Positions 20,716 through 44,138 of a stretch of DNA of 44,138 bases are shown in pieces. Below the pieces are notes generated by a model. That model made no database searches, was not told the DNA's origin, and saw only the letters and a list, made by a program, of their open reading frames with translations. The stretch lies in the IMG/VR virus record IMGVR_UViG_3300036785_000416, positions 1-44,138 of that record. One strand, 5' to 3'. Each line of letters opens with the position of its first letter. Position 1 is the stretch's first letter. Made by a program: the position numbers and the translations under genes. The DNA is from a virus.

Positions 20716-20951
20716 TCCATATGTTGCGTGTGCATGCATACCTCTTTCAAAATCGGGTACACTTCAGAAGGGGGATTGAGATATAGAACTAGGGGCCAGG
20801 GGGGCCATGCACCCCCGGGGGCCCCCACCGTACCATCCCTACCACACTGCACCATCCCTGCCACACACATGCACATGCATATATGCCGCAACAATTGCGA
20901 TCCGCGTCGCAACGATTGTGATTCCATGCGCAACGTGTTGCCTACAGCTCA

Positions 20952-20976
20952 CTTGACCTCGCTACGCTCGGTCAAG
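20952..20976. repeat. Loop-core hairpin in the divergent region
   Basis: Seven-bp perfect arms CTTGACC and GGTCAAG around TCGCTACGCTC. The first arm also includes a TTGACC that could serve as a -35 element. Confidence 0.75.
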
Positions 20977-21207
20977 ACTGCGGCGTGTTGTCGCGGTGAA
21001 CTCGCTTCACAAGGCCAAGGGTGCGGCGTGTTGTCGCACTTAAACGTCAACGCATACTATGTAATGTAACGTTACCAATGTCCATGTAAGAAATCTACCC
21101 CTCTAAAGGGGTGTGACGATTTGTCCAACTTTGCTACCGACATAATTAACTTGCACTATCACCTATTTCTACAAGCAACAATACCGCAACACAATTTTTC
21201 TAACCCA

Positions 21208-21236
21208 TTGATAACACTCACAGTTATTCTGATAGG
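21208..21236 (+). promoter_or_regulatory. Possible rightward early promoter
   Basis: TTGATA at 21208-21213 and GATAGG at 21231-21236 with a 17-bp spacer in the AT-rich part of the control region, about 180 bp before the first rightward gene. The -10 element matches only three of six consensus bases. Confidence 0.35.
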
Positions 21237-21248
21237 TCCTTAGGCCCG

Positions 21249-21334
21249 TAAGTCTATTAGATCCTCTGGCGTGAGAGAGAGAGAGAGAGAGAGATCTTCT
21301 TCCTCACTTAGTAAGTTGGTGTCTAATAGACTTA
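21249..21334. repeat. 13-bp inverted repeat flanking a (GA)11 tract
   Basis: TAAGTCTATTAGA at 21249-21261 is exactly inverted at 21322-21334. The 60-bp loop contains (GA)11 at 21273-21294. The arms are AT-rich. It lies in the leader of the first rightward gene and could be an operator, transcript structure or origin element. Confidence 0.85.
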
Positions 21335-21415
21335 TTGACGTACAACCCAACCCACACTACCTTGCCAACCAGCCCGCGAGCACACCGCAGCGGGCTCTCA
21401 TCGAAGGGAAGCACG

Positions 21416-21688
21416 ATGCCGCGTCTAGTCACTTCCATCAATCAAGTCACTCTCTACGTAAGCGCCCGCGAGACTACGGATTGGGCGAAACGCTGGCCGT
21501 GCTCCCAGCTGCGCGGCAAGCGTCTCATGGCGCAATTCGACAGCGGCGGGTTAATCGACGTGACGATAGACGGTCGCTATGGTGACTGCGACGCTGTCGA
21601 GTTCAACGCGATTACAAGCGACTTCCTGCGCGACCGGCTAGCCACAGACCATCCCGCCTATTTCGCGGCAGTTGGGCAATTCGACTAG
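21416..21688 (+). CDS. Small early phage protein, 90 aa
   Basis: ATG 21416 has GAAGGGAAG upstream. The protein includes WPCSQLRGKRLMAQFDSGGL, VTIDGRYGDCDAVEFNAITS and DFLRDRLATDHPAYF, a combination recurrent in small early genes of environmental phages with no assigned function. Two cysteines. It is the first rightward gene. Confidence 0.8.
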   Translation: MPRLVTSINQVTLYVSARETTDWAKRWPCSQLRGKRLMAQFDSGGLIDVTIDGRYGDCDAVEFNAITSDFLRDRLATDHPAYFAAVGQFD

Positions 21689-28167: not shown

Positions 28168-29880
28168 GTGACTGGGCAGTGGATCGAAGAAGGAGATCCA
28201 AACTCACCTTTATACATTGTCGGCGAAGCCCCCGGCGAGCGCGAGGTCGCCCAGCGCCGCCCCTTCGTCGGCCCCTCCGGCCAGCTCCTCGACAGCTGCC
28301 TGCGCGAAGCCGGCCTATATCGCCGCGACTGTTTCCTCACCAACATCTGCCATGTGCGGCCCCCCACTTACCGGGACAAACACAACCGGAGAATAGACAA
28401 TGACATCGACCAGTTCTTCGCCACCGCTACTCAAGCAAAGCGAGAGGGTATCCCTCTCCATCTCAGCCGCTATCCCCGTGAACCGATCACGGCCGGCCTC
28501 GCTCGACTACAAACCCTTATCGGACAGCATCGCCCTCGCCTTATCATCGCTATGGGCAACACAGGGCTGTGGGGACTGGTCGGCGAAACTGGTATTACCA
28601 AATGGCGAGGTAGTACGTTTCTCGGGAAAACGGGAACACGAACAATCGCAACCTTTCACCCCGCTGATTGTCTCGCAAACAGAAGCCCCCACCACCGACC
28701 AATACTCGTTCATGACCTCACTCGCGCCCGACGAGAGCTAGACCACCCCAGCGAGCCCCCGCAATGGCGCTTTGTCGTCGCTCCGCTCCGACAAGACGTA
28801 AGAGACTGGCTTGGCGTCTTGGCCGAAGGCCAGCCATTGACTTGCGACATCGAGACCCGCAACGGCCAAGTCGCCTGTCTCGGGCTCGCAAGCTCGCCCG
28901 AGACAGCACTCTGCATCCCCTTCATGAGAGCGCAACCCGGCGACAATGGGCACTCCTACTGGAGCCTAGACGACGAGTGCCACATCGTCGCTTTACTCCA
29001 ACAAATCCTCTCCACACACCCGACCACGTGGCACAATGGCTTATTCGATTGCCAGTACCTCGCCCGCCAATGGGCCTTCGGCCCATGCTACCACGATGAC
29101 ACGATGGTGATGCAGCATGTCGCGTTCCCTGGCCTCCTGGGTGGAAAGATTGACCCAGTCAGCGGGCGCACCGATAAAAGAGGCAGCTCTCTCTCACTTA
29201 GTTTCATCGCCTCTCTCTACTGTCGCCATTACCGTCATTGGAAAGATGACGGACGGCTCTTCGATCCATCTCAACATGATGAGGGACAACTCTGGTCGTA
29301 TAACTGTGAGGACGCTTGTCGTACCCACGAATGCAAGACGGCCCTTCGGGCCGTGCTGGAGCGTGCCGACCTGATCGACCAATATCGCTTCGAGATGTCG
29401 TGCATCCCACTCACGCTCCGAATGATGTGGCGCGGGCTCGCCGTCGCCCACGATGAAATGAAGGCCCAACACGCCGCCATCCTCACCGAGAAGTATGAAA
29501 CCGGCATCTGGCTCGACATCGCCACCGGCTGCGACTTCAACCCCGAAAGCACCCCGCAAATGCGCGCTCTCTTCTACAACGACTTGGCGCTGCCCACCCG
29601 TCTCGACAAGCACACCCGCCAGCCCTCCCTCAAGGACCACGACCTCACCCAGATCACTCGCCAGTGGCCCCTGACCCGCCCACTTATCGAGAAGATCCAG
29701 CTGTTTCGCACCCTCGACACCATCAAGGACAGTGTCGATCCCGCTTGTCTCTCCCCCGATGGCCGCCTGCGCACTGCCCTCAACCCCGCCTATGTCGAGA
29801 CATTCCGCTTCAGCTCGAACGAAACCGCCTTCGGCGAAGGTCACAATTTACAGAATATAGCGCGACCACCGGAGGACTAA
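28168..29880 (+). CDS. UDG/3'-5' exonuclease/polymerase thumb fusion (split DNA polymerase, part 1)
   Basis: 570 residues from GTG 28168 (GGAG 8 nt upstream). Residues ~10-190 are a family-4 uracil-DNA glycosylase domain: GEAPGEREVAQRRPFVGPSG at 19-38 and TFHPA near 162. Residues ~215-400 are a DnaQ-type exonuclease: CDIET (D227, E229), HNGLFD (N290, D294) and YNCED (Y378, D382). Residues ~400-564 match the family-A thumb to the LQNI motif at 561-564. The palm is absent; the ORF stops seven residues later and palm and fingers are encoded separately at 32498-33235. UDG-like domains are known on some phage polymerases. Splitting at this point is unusual. Confidence 0.93.
   Translation: MTGQWIEEGDPNSPLYIVGEAPGEREVAQRRPFVGPSGQLLDSCLREAGLYRRDCFLTNICHVRPPTYRDKHNRRIDNDIDQFFATATQAKREGIPLHLSRYPREPITAGLARLQTLIGQHRPRLIIAMGNTGLWGLVGETGITKWRGSTFLGKTGTRTIATFHPADCLANRSPHHRPILVHDLTRARRELDHPSEPPQWRFVVAPLRQDVRDWLGVLAEGQPLTCDIETRNGQVACLGLASSPETALCIPFMRAQPGDNGHSYWSLDDECHIVALLQQILSTHPTTWHNGLFDCQYLARQWAFGPCYHDDTMVMQHVAFPGLLGGKIDPVSGRTDKRGSSLSLSFIASLYCRHYRHWKDDGRLFDPSQHDEGQLWSYNCEDACRTHECKTALRAVLERADLIDQYRFEMSCIPLTLRMMWRGLAVAHDEMKAQHAAILTEKYETGIWLDIATGCDFNPESTPQMRALFYNDLALPTRLDKHTRQPSLKDHDLTQITRQWPLTRPLIEKIQLFRTLDTIKDSVDPACLSPDGRLRTALNPAYVETFRFSSNETAFGEGHNLQNIARPPED
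28772..28794 (+). repeat. Loop-core hairpin in polymerase coding
   Basis: Six-bp perfect arms TTGTCG and CGACAA with core TCGCTCCGCTC. Confidence 0.7.
29070..29086. repeat. TTC-loop palindrome in polymerase coding
   Basis: ATGGGCC-TTC-GGCCCAT. A second copy type, ACGGCCC-TTC-GGGCCGT, lies at 29338-29354 in the same gene. Confidence 0.65.
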
Positions 29881-30471: not shown

Positions 30472-31095
30472 ATGCTCCTCTTCGTCGATTGTGAAACCAC
30501 CGGCATCCCCAACTTCAACCGCCCTTGGGACTGGTCCGAGCAACCTCGCCTCGTCCAGCTAGCCGCTTTGCTGGTCGCTTCGCTCCCAGCAAAGGACGGC
30601 GAGTACCAGCAGATCCGCGAACTCAACTACATCATCCGCCCCGCCGGCTGGACTATTCCCCCCAAGGTTGCCGCCATCCACGGCGTCACCACAGAGCGGG
30701 CCCTCGCCTTCGGCGTCCCACTCGATCACGCCATGTCCAAGTTTCAAGGCATGCTCGTCGATGCCGACGAACTCGGCGTCGGAGGCAAGATCATCGCCCA
30801 CAACCTCCAATTCGACACTCACATCCTACTCGCTGAACTTAACCATTGCGGCATGCCACTGGCCCCCTTCGGATTGCTCCGTCCTTTCTGCACCATGCGC
30901 ACCCTCACCAACAGGATGAGACTGCCCGGCGGACCACGAGGCGAATACAAATGGCCCACCCTCGACGAAGCTTGGAGGTTCATACACCCCGATCGGCCTC
31001 CGGCCGATCCTGCAGCACGCCATACCGCAATGGGCGACGTCGTCATGTGCCGCGACGTCTACCTCAGCGGCCTCGAACGCGGCTGGTGGCCATGA
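30472..31095 (+). CDS. DnaQ-like 3'-5' exonuclease
   Basis: 207 residues with LLFVDCETTGIPNF as Exo I (D6, E8), IIAHNLQFDTHILLAEL as Exo II and RHTAMGDVVMCRDVY as the Exo IIIepsilon HxxxxD. This is the DEDDh proofreading exonuclease family (DNA polymerase III epsilon-like). The polymerase fragment at 28168 has its own exonuclease domain, so this protein likely works separately, for example in DNA repair, degradation or RNA processing. A 9-bp-arm hairpin (30566-30594) lies within the gene. Confidence 0.9.
   Translation: MLLFVDCETTGIPNFNRPWDWSEQPRLVQLAALLVASLPAKDGEYQQIRELNYIIRPAGWTIPPKVAAIHGVTTERALAFGVPLDHAMSKFQGMLVDADELGVGGKIIAHNLQFDTHILLAELNHCGMPLAPFGLLRPFCTMRTLTNRMRLPGGPRGEYKWPTLDEAWRFIHPDRPPADPAARHTAMGDVVMCRDVYLSGLERGWWP
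30566..30594 (+). repeat. Loop-core hairpin with 9-bp arms, in exonuclease coding
   Basis: CTTTGCTGG and CCAGCAAAG flank TCGCTTCGCTC. It is the longest perfect arm pair in the family and lies wholly in codons. Confidence 0.8.
30991..31009. repeat. TCC-loop palindrome in exonuclease coding
   Basis: GATCGGCC-TCC-GGCCGATC, the same arms as the element at 27895-27913 with one loop change. Confidence 0.7.
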
Positions 31096-31102
31096 GGCTC
31101 GC

Positions 31103-31129
31103 CATGAGGCTCGCTACGCTAGCCTCATG
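31103..31129. repeat. Loop-core hairpin after the exonuclease gene
   Basis: Perfect 8-bp arms CATGAGGC and GCCTCATG with core TCGCTACGCTA. A second CATGAGGCTCG copy lies just upstream at 31091. Confidence 0.75.
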
Positions 31130-31154
31130 CAGCTTCCACACGTAAGGAACCACA

Positions 31155-31394
31155 ATGGCCATCGAACGGTGGACACCCCGGCGCAAAGTAGCACTCCTCA
31201 ACGACCTCGCCACCGGCCGCACCACCCAGGAAGCTGTCCTTCGCCTGTACAACGTATCCCCCGACGAAATCGCCGAGTGGATACGCGCCTACCACCATGA
31301 CGGCCTGCCCGGCCTTCGCACCACTCGCACCCAGGAGCGCCGCCCCCGCCACTTCCTCCGATCGCCTCGCTCCGCTCGCCGATCACCCACATAG
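31155..31394 (+). CDS. SciP/DUF1153-like transcription regulator
   Basis: 79 residues from ATG 31155, with AAGGA about 7 nt upstream. RWTPRRKVALLNDLATGRTT through LYNVSPDEIAEWIRAYHHDG and GLRTTRTQERR follow the helix-turn-helix pattern of alphaproteobacterial SciP (DUF1153), including the terminal GL-x-LRTTR signature. In Caulobacter, SciP restrains activation by the cell-cycle regulator CtrA. A phage copy could modify host cell-cycle transcription or control phage genes. The C-terminal ~20 residues are encoded partly by a loop-core hairpin and are not conserved family sequence. Confidence 0.8.
   Translation: MAIERWTPRRKVALLNDLATGRTTQEAVLRLYNVSPDEIAEWIRAYHHDGLPGLRTTRTQERRPRHFLRSPRSARRSPT
31360..31384. 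repeat. Loop-core hairpin at the end of the SciP-like gene
   Basis: Core TCGCTCCGCTC at 31367-31377; outer GATCG and CGATC arms pair, with mismatches next to the core. Confidence 0.55.
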
Positions 31395-31395
31395 C

Positions 31396-31426
31396 TTCCA
31401 CAGAACATCCACAGACTTGTCCACAG
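31396..31426. other. Three TCCACAG boxes (DnaA-box-like)
   Basis: TTCCACAG (31396), ATCCACAG (31407) and GTCCACAG (31419) are 11 and 12 bp apart, about one helical turn. TTGTCCACA at 31417-31425 equals a DnaA box form known from some high-GC bacteria. Such spacing suggests cooperative protein binding. Confidence 0.55.
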
Positions 31427-31475: not shown

Positions 31476-31827
31476 GATGACGAGCGGTTGTGTCACAGAG
31501 AATGTTTCGGGATCTTGCAGCATAATCCATGCACTGGCGTCACTCGGGGCGTCGCCCGCAATGCCGGTCCCATCGGCAAGCCCCCGCAACCCCTCAGGGC
31601 TACCCAACGGCCAATTATGCAGCTTGTGCGCACATCCTCACCACCTCGAGCTGCACCCGGACATCTGCCAAATGCCGGCCGTAAAAACGTCTCCAACCTT
31701 TTTCACCTTCGGGAGGAAAAAGGAGCCTCTCCAGTGCGCGGAGAGGCTACTACGGAGAATGTCCACCTGCCAAAGCCAGAGACGTTTTTACGGCCGGCAT
31801 TTGGCAGATCACGAGGAGCAACCATGA
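31453..31827 (+). CDS. Doubtful ORF across the structured locus, 124 aa
   Basis: From ATG 31453 the frame ends ATGA over the next gene, and has a Cys/His cluster (CSLCAHPHHLELHPDIC). However, it covers the iterons and both arms of the 31-bp inverted repeat, is low in recognisable structure, and two other frames are also open. It may be a true zinc-binding small protein or only an open frame in GC-rich non-coding DNA. Confidence 0.25.
   Translation: MNVPLYPMMTSGCVTENVSGSCSIIHALASLGASPAMPVPSASPRNPSGLPNGQLCSLCAHPHHLELHPDICQMPAVKTSPTFFTFGRKKEPLQCAERLLRRMSTCQSQRRFYGRHLADHEEQP
31663..31809. repeat. 31-bp inverted repeat with nested hairpins
   Basis: 31663-31693 is the exact reverse complement of 31779-31809. 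Inside are an AGCCTCTCC/GGAGAGGCT hairpin (9-bp stem, 31724-31748) and an imperfect CCTTTTTC/GAAAAAGG hairpin with a CTTCGG-type tip (about 31697-31722). The folded form would be a long stem with two side hairpins. It may be an origin structure, a small non-coding RNA or a miniature element. It ends 14 bp before the next start codon. Confidence 0.9.
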
Positions 31828-32309: not shown

Positions 32310-32501
32310 ATGACCGAGTTGACTGCTGATCGCTTCATCGTATCCAGCAAGGAACTTGCCGAGTTATGGCAAGTCTACGGCATCGACGAAAGAGACGCGG
32401 GCAAAGACATAACCCTCCACGAATTCGACTTCATCCGACTGATGGTATCCCTCTATATAGCGAGAGGCATGGTACCACCACCAATCACATGGGCGCGATG
32501 A
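32310..32501 (+). CDS. Unknown protein, 63 aa
   Basis: Helical protein (DRFIVSSKELAELWQVYGID) with an acidic middle and a Pro-rich end. Its stop overlaps the palm gene start as ATGA, so the polymerase part 2 is likely coupled to it. It might help the two polymerase parts associate, but there is no direct evidence. Confidence 0.6.
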   Translation: MTELTADRFIVSSKELAELWQVYGIDERDAGKDITLHEFDFIRLMVSLYIARGMVPPPITWAR

Positions 32502-33235
32502 CCTTACCCAACATCCGCCGGACCATCGTCCCCGATCCGGGGATGGTACTGGTCGAGATCGACCTGAAGCAAGCCGACGCCCAGATCGTCGCATGGGCGA
32601 GCAACGATGAACCGCTCAAGTCGCTGTTTCGCCAGGGGGTTGATATATACACTGAACGACAAACCGGCATCTGGAGTGATCCAAGCCTGCCTTCATCTAG
32701 ACAGATCCGAAAGAACTGCATTCACTCCGTCAATTACGGAGCAGCATATCGTACTCTGGCCGAACGGTACGTGGGTACTGAAGCGGCCGCTCGCCACTTC
32801 ATCGACACTTGGTTCTCCCACCACCTCGCCATTCGCGAGTGGCAGCGCCGGATCGAGTGGGAAATGACCCAATCCCGTACCCCTTCGATCCGAAACATCT
32901 ACGGCTATCGCCGCCTATACGCCTGCCCCACCCCATTGACCCAGCCACTAGCGTGGTTGGGTCAATCTACCGTCGCCAGGGTGAACAAAGAAATGCTCTT
33001 AGCTCTCGCTACGCTCGAACCAACAGTTCAAATTCTCATGCCGCACCACGACAGCGTCCTTCTACAAGTCCCTGTCGGGCTTACGCCCGACATCTTTCCC
33101 AAGTTGCTTGAACTCTGTGCCATCACTGTCCCCTACAAGGATGATCCCCTTGTCATCCCATGTGACCTCAAATACAGCGACCAATCCTGGGGCGACATGC
33201 TAAGCTGGTCGCCGGAGGCGACCAATGCTGATTGA
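32498..33235 (+). CDS. DNA polymerase A palm and fingers (split polymerase, part 2)
   Basis: 245 residues from ATG 32498 (ATGA overlap). It begins LPNIRRTIVPDPGMVLVEID, the sequence that follows the LQNI motif in intact phage polymerases. Motif A has D22 and D27 (EIDLKQADAQIVAW), motif B has RQIRKNCIHSVNYGAAY (K72, Y80, G81) and motif C is PHHDSVLLQVP. All catalytic residues are present, so the enzyme may be active if the parts assemble. The 3' end overlaps the next gene by 11 bp. It lies 2.6 kb from part 1. Confidence 0.93.
   Translation: MTLPNIRRTIVPDPGMVLVEIDLKQADAQIVAWASNDEPLKSLFRQGVDIYTERQTGIWSDPSLPSSRQIRKNCIHSVNYGAAYRTLAERYVGTEAAARHFIDTWFSHHLAIREWQRRIEWEMTQSRTPSIRNIYGYRRLYACPTPLTQPLAWLGQSTVARVNKEMLLALATLEPTVQILMPHHDSVLLQVPVGLTPDIFPKLLELCAITVPYKDDPLVIPCDLKYSDQSWGDMLSWSPEATNAD
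33073..33092. repeat. GGGC-TTAC-GCCC palindrome in palm gene
   Basis: TGTCGGGC-TTAC-GCCCGACA with perfect 8-bp arms near motif C. Confidence 0.65.
33206..33224. repeat. GGA-loop palindrome ending at a start codon
   Basis: TGGTCGCC-GGA-GGCGACCA; the right arm ends one base before ATG 33225, so the start of the next gene is adjacent to a stem. Confidence 0.65.
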
Positions 33236-33597: not shown

Positions 33598-34923
33598 ATG
33601 GTTCTCACCCTCGTTTCGGATCGCTCCGCCCGACGAAGGGAACATGACGACTGGATCACCTCCTACCTCGCCGCAGTCGTCCCGAAGAGCGAGGCCCCCG
33701 AACGCTTCCACTTCTGGATTGGGGCAAGCATCATAGCAGGAGCTTTACGCCGCCGTGTAAGTATCAATATGGAGGCGTTCTCCTGGTTCCCCAATATGTT
33801 CATCGTCCTCGTCGGTCCCCCTGGCACCGTCAAGAAATCGACTAGCATCAACGTCGGTGCCCGTCTTTTACGCGATGTGCCCAATATTCATTTTGGCAGT
33901 GACATCACTACTTGGGAAGGCTTCATTCAGCAAGTCGAGAACGCCGAGGACATATTTGCTGAAGGCGACCCCCAGCCACGCCTAGACTTCAACGAAGAGT
34001 ACAAAGTCACTTCAGCACTAACATGTATCGTTAGTGAATGGGGAACGTTTCTTGATCCCGATAACTACAACATGATCAACATGTTGACTGAACTATACGA
34101 CGGCAAGTCCGATATCCCACTACGAAAGACAACCAAGACGCATGGCGACAACATAATAGTCAATCCATTCTTGAATATGATAGCCGGTACGACACCCTCC
34201 TGGATGGCTGACAATTTCAAGGGCCGTTTCGGCGGTTGGGGTTTCTCTTCCAGATGCATCTTCCTGCACGCCTCACAGCCGGAACGTCTAATACCCTATC
34301 CAGACGAAGAGTGGCAAGGCACCTTCCAGTCCCAGATGCAGAGTTTCACAAAGGATCTCATCGAGATCAGCAGGATGAAAGGTCAATACGTCCTCGACCC
34401 CGCCGCGCGCAACTACGGTCGCGATTGGTACCGACAACATATGGAGCGCAAAGTCCGTCTCGATGAACACCCCGATCACAATCCTTGGCTCAGCTACTAT
34501 CTCGCTCGCAAGTTCGATCACGCCCACAAGCTAGCTATGGTCATCGCGGCCAGCCAAGGCTCCCAGCTCCTCATCACTTACGACCACCTCAAGACAGCTT
34601 GCGACCGCTGCGACGAAGTGGAGGTCGAACTCTCCAAGGTCTTTGGCAGCAACGTCCAGGACACTTCTAGAGCTGTCCGCCTCAATCAATCACTCTGGGT
34701 CGAACTAGAGAATATGATCACTAAGAATGGTGGCGGATTTGAGGAACGCGGCATCTACGCATGGACTTTGCGCCGTTTAACCTATGGAGAAAGCAAAGCC
34801 TTCATCGAGCATCTTATAGCAGGCAATTGGCTCAAAAAGGAAGTCAATAACGATGGAACATGGCTTGTATTCGGATCAGCGTACAAGAATGCTACCGAAC
34901 CGACGCGCAGCTCACCGGATTGA
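33598..34923 (+). CDS. DUF3987-like helicase/primase ATPase
   Basis: 441 residues. A Walker A GPPGTVKKST at 73-82, CIVSEWGTFLD as Walker B-like with acidic E, and MIAGTTPSWMADNFKGRFGG with a sensor/arginine finger region and SSRCIFLHASQPERL match DUF3987-type phage and plasmid replication ATPases. A C-terminal winged-helix-like region ends near WLVFGSAYKN. It probably unwinds DNA for the polymerase. Codon use is somewhat lower GC than its neighbours. No TOPRIM primase domain was seen. Confidence 0.8.
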   Translation: MVLTLVSDRSARRREHDDWITSYLAAVVPKSEAPERFHFWIGASIIAGALRRRVSINMEAFSWFPNMFIVLVGPPGTVKKSTSINVGARLLRDVPNIHFGSDITTWEGFIQQVENAEDIFAEGDPQPRLDFNEEYKVTSALTCIVSEWGTFLDPDNYNMINMLTELYDGKSDIPLRKTTKTHGDNIIVNPFLNMIAGTTPSWMADNFKGRFGGWGFSSRCIFLHASQPERLIPYPDEEWQGTFQSQMQSFTKDLIEISRMKGQYVLDPAARNYGRDWYRQHMERKVRLDEHPDHNPWLSYYLARKFDHAHKLAMVIAASQGSQLLITYDHLKTACDRCDEVEVELSKVFGSNVQDTSRAVRLNQSLWVELENMITKNGGGFEERGIYAWTLRRLTYGESKAFIEHLIAGNWLKKEVNNDGTWLVFGSAYKNATEPTRSSPD

Positions 34924-43640: not shown

Positions 43641-44138
43641 GAGATCGTCACCGGCACCATGGTCAGCGTATAAGACCCGATGGGGGCGGTTGCTGCCCAG
43701 TGAGGAGCCTGGTCGTTGTAGTCGCCGCAGCAGGTGATCATCGCCGTTGCTCCACCGTCCACCTGTAACGATTTCGGCATGATGTTGGGGTTGTAAAGTC
43801 CGCGCCCCCCCGGCACCGCCCCCACCGCGGCATTCCACGTCTTCGACGCGCCCGCCAACAGGGTCCACGGCCCCCACAGTTTGGTTGACTGCCACACGTC
43901 CCACGTCGTCGTCGAGGAATCTTCGACGGCATTGTTGACAATTGCCGGATACCACCACTGGATGTGTATATAACAGCCGAACTTCGGCAGATACTGCACC
44001 CCGTTGCTGCTGACCTTGAGTGCGCTGTTGATCAACGGCGCCGCCGTCGCCCACGCTCCCCAGCTCGCGTCGAGCATACCGTTGTCGACACCTACAGGCC
44101 CCTGCCAATAACTCCACTTGGTTCCATCCAGCGCCGGC
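43637..44138 (-). CDS. Exported propeller-like (DUF4185-like) protein, C-terminal part
   Basis: The C-terminal codons of the gene that starts at 900; bases 44012-44138 repeat 1-127, so the non-duplicated part is 43637-44011 (124 residues). It includes SKTWNAAVGAVPGGRGLYNP and MITCCGDYNDQAPHW, with Trp-rich and GLYNP segments typical of DUF4185-like propeller blades. It ends GSYTLTMVPVTIS. The GTGA overlap couples it to the 34-aa gene. Confidence 0.85.
   Translation of the reverse strand, partial: PALDGTKWSYWQGPVGVDNGMLDASWGAWATAAPLINSALKVSSNGVQYLPKFGCYIHIQWWYPAIVNNAVEDSSTTTWDVWQSTKLWGPWTLLAGASKTWNAAVGAVPGGRGLYNPNIMPKSLQVDGGATAMITCCGDYNDQAPHWAATAPIGSYTLTMVPVTIS
44012..44138. repeat. Terminal direct repeat, right copy
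   Basis: Identical to 1-127. One copy should be removed to obtain the circular sequence. Confidence 0.95.

Follow-up and report, generated by a model that had tools for sequence, protein, structure and literature searches.

The window analysed here is the whole of a 44,138-bp viral record (IMG/VR IMGVR_UViG_3300036785_000416), which is probably a complete genome, since an exact direct repeat of 127 bp is found at both ends (1-127 and 44012-44138). At 31155..31394 on the plus strand lies the SciP/DUF1153-like gene that is the focus of this study, with exactly the boundaries given by an earlier, sequence-only reading. It begins with an ATG, specifies a protein of 79 aa, and carries an AAGGA ribosome-binding site 6 nt before the start codon (31144..31148, +). 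The DUF1153 core occupies residues 1-63 (31155..31343, +), and consists of an RW-x-PRRK motif, a helix-turn-helix (HTH) and the stretch GLPGLRTTRTQERR (residues 50-63). Both the HTH core and the C-terminal SciP-like motif (GLxGLRxTRxQ) described earlier are present. GC content by codon position within the core (0.70/0.51/0.78) is similar to that of adjacent real genes. Residues 64-79 fall outside the DUF1153 domain, and a copy of a dispersed hairpin, at 31360-31384, supplies some of the codons of this tail.

The surrounding genes form a rightward replication module, and in this sense the earlier placement of the gene in an early block holds. Just upstream is a gene for a DnaQ-type exonuclease (30472..31095, +; PHROG_192, 89.8 bits), and further downstream is one for a DUF3987 primase-like replication protein (33598..34923, +; PHROG_14296, 192.6 bits). 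Profile matches identified a family-A DNA polymerase that is split into an N-terminal piece, with a UDG-like domain, the exonuclease region and the start of the polymerase domain (28168..29880, +), and a C-terminal piece (32489..33235, +). The break falls directly after NLQNI, and the two pieces are about 2.6 kb apart, with the exonuclease gene, the SciP-like gene and small ORFs between them. The same break point, with a different insert, is seen in the polymerase of Vibrio phage VS-ABTNL-3 (PVS_29/PVS_27); those of Mel-JY34 and ctMlz233 are unsplit.

A palindrome at 31103..31129, upstream of the SciP-like gene, was considered as the gene's own operator and rejected, because its loop, TCGCTNCGCT, recurs 23 times between 8983 and 43183 in the window (0.87 expected) with differing self-complementary stems. 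Nearly all of these hairpins have complementary stems of 5-9 bp that vary from copy to copy, and they lie inside as well as between genes. Directly after the gene, at 31395..31425 (+), a motif scan found three DnaA-box-like words (CTTCCACA, ACATCCACA and TTGTCCACA). This is the sole triple TCCACA cluster in the window, and one of 100 shuffled sequences had such a cluster within 30 bp. The trio spans 31 bp and lies in roughly 400 bp of noncoding sequence, possibly a replication-related region.

Membership of the DUF1153 family was examined in several ways. Residues 3-62 matched the Pfam profile (PF06627) at 47.6 bits (E 1.9e-12; curated cut-off 23.5), which bears out the family proposed from sequence alone. 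DUF1153 led every other Pfam family by some 20 bits, and placement in another HTH family, which would have spoken against the proposal, was not obtained, the runner-up being HTH_28 at 28 bits. Against an HMM built solely from bacterial (host) DUF1153 proteins, the phage protein scored 60.8 bits, compared to 29-35 bits for IS3-type transposase HTHs and a maximum of 8.4 bits among 964 scored shuffles of the protein itself; the match is not due to chance. All of the core positions that are invariant across the collected relatives (R5, W6, R10, K11, E38, W42, G50, L54 and T57) are retained. The DUF1153 cut-off alone is indecisive, because an HTH protein from an Escherichia coli insertion sequence also passes it (30.5 bits), and the assignment was decided by three margins: the gap to the transposase family HTH_Tnp_1, the score on the host HMM, and the match of the C-terminal half. 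DUF1153 was ahead of HTH_Tnp_1 by 33 bits in the phage protein, whereas the insertion-sequence protein favoured HTH_Tnp_1, and the C-terminal half matched SciP proteins but not the insertion-sequence protein (IS_L136).

The relationship to SciP itself is less complete. The best NCBIfam model was indeed SciP (NF051866), but at 47.3 bits the match was well below the equivalog cut-off of 100. The Pfam profile was covered only from 27 to 86 of its 87 positions, leaving the part for an N-terminal arm unmatched. This arm, GPxGxPLTLxDLPPPDT, precedes the core in nearly all of the collected host proteins and is absent from the phage protein; a stop codon four codons before the ATG means that no arm is hidden upstream. 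Changes at residues T24 and T65 impair SciP (PMC4241560). By an inferred alignment, T24 would fall in the missing arm, and T65 would correspond to the recognition-helix cap, occupied in the phage protein by S35 as in some host proteins. An AlphaFold2 model (alignment of 20 sequences) showed three confident helices at residues 8-20, 25-32 and 36-49, with pLDDT of about 90 over residues 11-50, and in a Foldseek search the top PDB match of this model was 2jrt, a DUF1153 protein of Rhodobacter sphaeroides (prob 0.91), with an E-value of only 0.55 because the protein is small. The phage protein shares a sequence family with both solved DUF1153 proteins, 2jrt and 2oa4, but these are bacterial, are given no function in their entries, and have about 30 residues ahead of the core. 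With the Caulobacter crescentus CtrA inhibitor SciP, it has in common the HTH core, the GLxGLRxTRxQ C-terminus and every invariant core position, but it is phage-encoded, divergent, without the arm and below the 100-bit cut-off. Judged by sequence, then, it is a DUF1153 member that is SciP-like, and the missing arm and the sub-threshold score put SciP identity itself beyond the evidence: of the match to SciP first claimed, the homology of the core stands and membership of the SciP equivalog family does not.

Could the protein instead be a domesticated insertion-sequence HTH of the IS3/IS630 type, resembling DUF1153 through convergence or distant common descent? HTH_28 also exceeded its own cut-off (28 versus 25 bits), the E. 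coli protein reaches the DUF1153 cut-off, as noted above, the N-terminal half of the phage protein scores about equally with that protein, and a tree of 62 columns grouped the two weakly, with the phage protein on a very long branch. This tree was too short, and the placement too weak, for it to be used to trace the origin of the gene. Against such a derivation, the two proteins show opposite preferences for DUF1153 and HTH_Tnp_1 (47.6 versus 14.9 bits in the phage protein), and only SciP proteins fit the C-terminal half. The phage protein is below the cut-offs of both HTH_Tnp_1 (24.1 bits) and transpos_IS630 (22.8 versus 100 bits), and neither a transposase catalytic domain nor a partner ORF was found among the adjoining ORFs scanned, which were exonuclease, polymerase, or without a Pfam family. 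An insertion-sequence derivation is thus regarded as very improbable. Hardly less improbable is that the gene is a non-functional, decaying remnant. It has the lowest score among the accepted phage members, and an odd tail partly encoded by a dispersed hairpin, but the frame is intact, the ribosome site and every invariant core residue are kept, and the phage genome is compact.

An alphaproteobacterial host, as deduced earlier from the SciP-like motifs, is supported. The best 80 relatives of the protein among 84,980 species genomes were all alphaproteobacterial by record title (one being labelled only 'Pseudomonadota'), many of them from Sphingomonadales, the closest showing 48% identity over the core. 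DUF1153 proteins were present in 56 of 142 genomes in an even sample of Alphaproteobacteria, typically scoring 100-145 bits, and among 14 control genomes were found only in Caulobacter. The sequence GANTC, which is the site of CcrM methylation and is also cut by HinfI, occurs five times in the 44-kb window, as against 89 expected from a maximal-order Markov model, 154 from base composition and about 180 (up to 181) from a first-order model. Within 21.6 kb of coding sequence there is a single copy, compared to 57.7 expected after synonymous codon shuffling (minimum 38). Together, the alphaproteobacterial relatives and this scarcity tie the phage to the alphaproteobacterial cell-cycle world. A host restriction enzyme that cuts GANTC would account just as well for the depletion. 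Three relatives carry a methyltransferase before the polymerase; in the window, none was recognised among the few ORFs scanned there. In one study, roughly half of the pelagiphages examined were reported to be depleted of GANTC (PMC9516812).

Similar genes recur in unrelated viruses of these bacteria: Erythrobacter phage XM05 has one, as do at least four further viral contigs, and several are also truncated at the N-terminus. In scans of IMG/VR, clear DUF1153 relatives were found on seven contigs besides this one; another candidate (L012) was dropped because its score did not exceed those of transposase HTHs. XM05 was the only one of 50,697 phage records to carry a relative, annotated as hypothetical. 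A 116-kb contig (L005) has two copies, one of which lies downstream of two helicase genes, one of them DnaB-like; L007 and L008 specify an identical protein, which in L007 is sited between genes for a family-A polymerase (PolA) and rIIA. The contig of L009 also bears portal and terminase genes, L010 is an 88-kb contig, and the contig of L011 has two DUF1153 genes. L006 looks host-like and may represent a prophage edge. The arm is missing from the proteins of XM05 (XM05_97), L005 and L010, as it is from the 79-aa protein, and is retained in those of L007 and L006. Close relatives of the phage itself were found neither by megablast nor, among viral contigs, by polymerase peptide patterns. Its polymerase/DUF3987 relatives (Mel-JY34, ctMlz233, Vibrio phage VS-ABTNL-3 and Caulobacter phage Kuura) gave no DUF1153 match, which makes the SciP-like gene an accessory one here.

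In Caulobacter, the sites bound by SciP (GCGAC, or the palindrome GCGNC-N5-GNCGC) lie 60-90 bp ahead of CtrA-activated transcription starts, which SciP represses; the motif is present in the promoters of ctrA and ccrM (PMC4287350). A candidate operator that fits this palindrome, GCGGCGTGTTGTCGC, occurs in the phage at 20980..20994, with a second exact copy at 21023..21037. Both lie in the intergenic region between the leftward and rightward genes (20720-21416), where 0.009 copies would be expected. Over the whole window, an enrichment of SciP motifs was ruled out, as the counts were at chance (4 full palindromes versus 3.5 expected, and 170 half sites versus 174), and for this reason, and because the region was picked after the hits had been seen, the two promoter-region copies are suggestive only and are best treated as a lead. 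The other viruses with SciP-like genes mostly lacked a motif excess, the exception being the 116-kb contig (30 versus 20 expected). No CtrA box (TTAA-N7-TTAA) was found in the phage genome, and the one TTAACCAT (0.4 expected) lies within a coding region, so that control of this phage by CtrA was rejected. Any CtrA-mediated action would therefore have to take place at host promoters.

The role proposed here builds on direct observations, namely the gene, its family, the fold match, the loss of the arm, the recurrence in other viruses and the avoidance of GANTC. The motif data and the lack of a phage CtrA box favour a repressor whose SciP-type sites would lie in the host, in the promoter region of the phage, or in both. 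An alphaproteobacterial genome is the probable source of the gene, which would be expressed alongside the phage replication genes. Its product, an N-terminally shortened protein of the SciP (DUF1153) kind, is most likely a small HTH repressor that would bind GCGAC or GCGNC-N5-GNCGC sites, imitate host SciP or compete with it at host promoters under CtrA control, and possibly act also on the main promoter region of the phage, through the sites at 20980 and 21023. This explanation is held with moderate confidence. It counts in its favour that relatives twice lie beside replication genes (L005 and L007); counted against it are the absence of the arm, which in host SciP is perhaps needed for contact with CtrA or polymerase, the lack of a CtrA box in the phage, and the weak tree placement with a transposase HTH. 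That the host cell cycle or flagella are affected, as first suggested, is presumptive, as is the step from binding SciP sites to restraining CtrA.

A SciP-descended regulator might also serve the phage only, binding the palindromes of the divergent promoter region (20720-21416) and acting as a switch for the early and late transcription of the phage, while host CtrA promoters would be left alone. The two exact 15-bp palindromes in the main intergenic region, 43 bp apart or about four helical turns, would suit such a switch, as would the loss of the arm and the location of the gene in the rightward replication module. However, host SciP could be the protein that binds these sites, the motif is degenerate, and it is not in excess in most of the other viruses with SciP-like genes, so that this possibility is considered rather doubtful. 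Arm loss in this protein and in those of XM05, L005 and L010 could also signify a dominant-negative or titrating form, in which a lone HTH core fills SciP sites, relieves SciP repression and keeps CtrA-driven host genes on, but the arm is kept in L007 and L006 and its role is putative, and such a mode of action seems unlikely.

Phage-borne versions of alphaproteobacterial cell-cycle proteins have been described, such as the GcrA homologue of phage PhiCbK and the CcrM-like methyltransferases of sinorhizobial phages (PMC9437464, PMC5537653). These likewise represent host regulators or their activities in alphaproteobacterial phages, but are different proteins from the one described here, and no phage SciP was found in the literature searched. 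A phage SciP would add a CtrA antagonist to this set, and would provide a small, testable tool for studying how phages direct the cell cycle of Alphaproteobacteria.

The closest parallel among phage records, XM05_97, is also a phage-encoded, arm-less DUF1153 protein (65 bits), but is only 36.5% identical to the 79-aa protein and lies within a 22-kb block of small genes (76-98 kb) rich in CtrA-type boxes, of which the phage studied here has none. This block holds seven intergenic TTAA-N7-TTAA boxes (0.14 expected), which are all of those in the first 150 kb of XM05, as well as 11 copies of TTAA-N9-TTAA, some of the form TTAACCATnnnnnGTTAA. Since the N9 spacing is enriched too, the elements are read as dense CtrA-like half-sites that extend beyond classical boxes. 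If so, XM05 would combine CtrA-type promoters and a homologue of a CtrA antagonist in one block, and would stand near the CtrA-regulated phages already described (PMC9437464); some phage promoters are known to be driven by CtrA. As a tentative and on balance improbable generalisation, alphaproteobacterial phages may repeatedly have acquired SciP, often reduced to the part that binds DNA, and used it to lock host promoters regulated by CtrA/SciP, including that of ccrM, in a state favourable to phage replication; in the present phage this would be accompanied by near-complete loss of CcrM sites, and in XM05, with CtrA boxes in the block of the gene itself, the protein would feed back on phage promoters driven by CtrA and act as a brake.

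Rfam families gave no match across 29-34 kb. Within this region, an inverted repeat at 31652-31820 had no match in Rfam, nor by blastn among phages. It has 42-nt arms that are 88% complementary and enclose two inner hairpins, lies in the 5' leader of an ORF at 31824, and has a folding energy of -98.6 kcal/mol (z -10.4).
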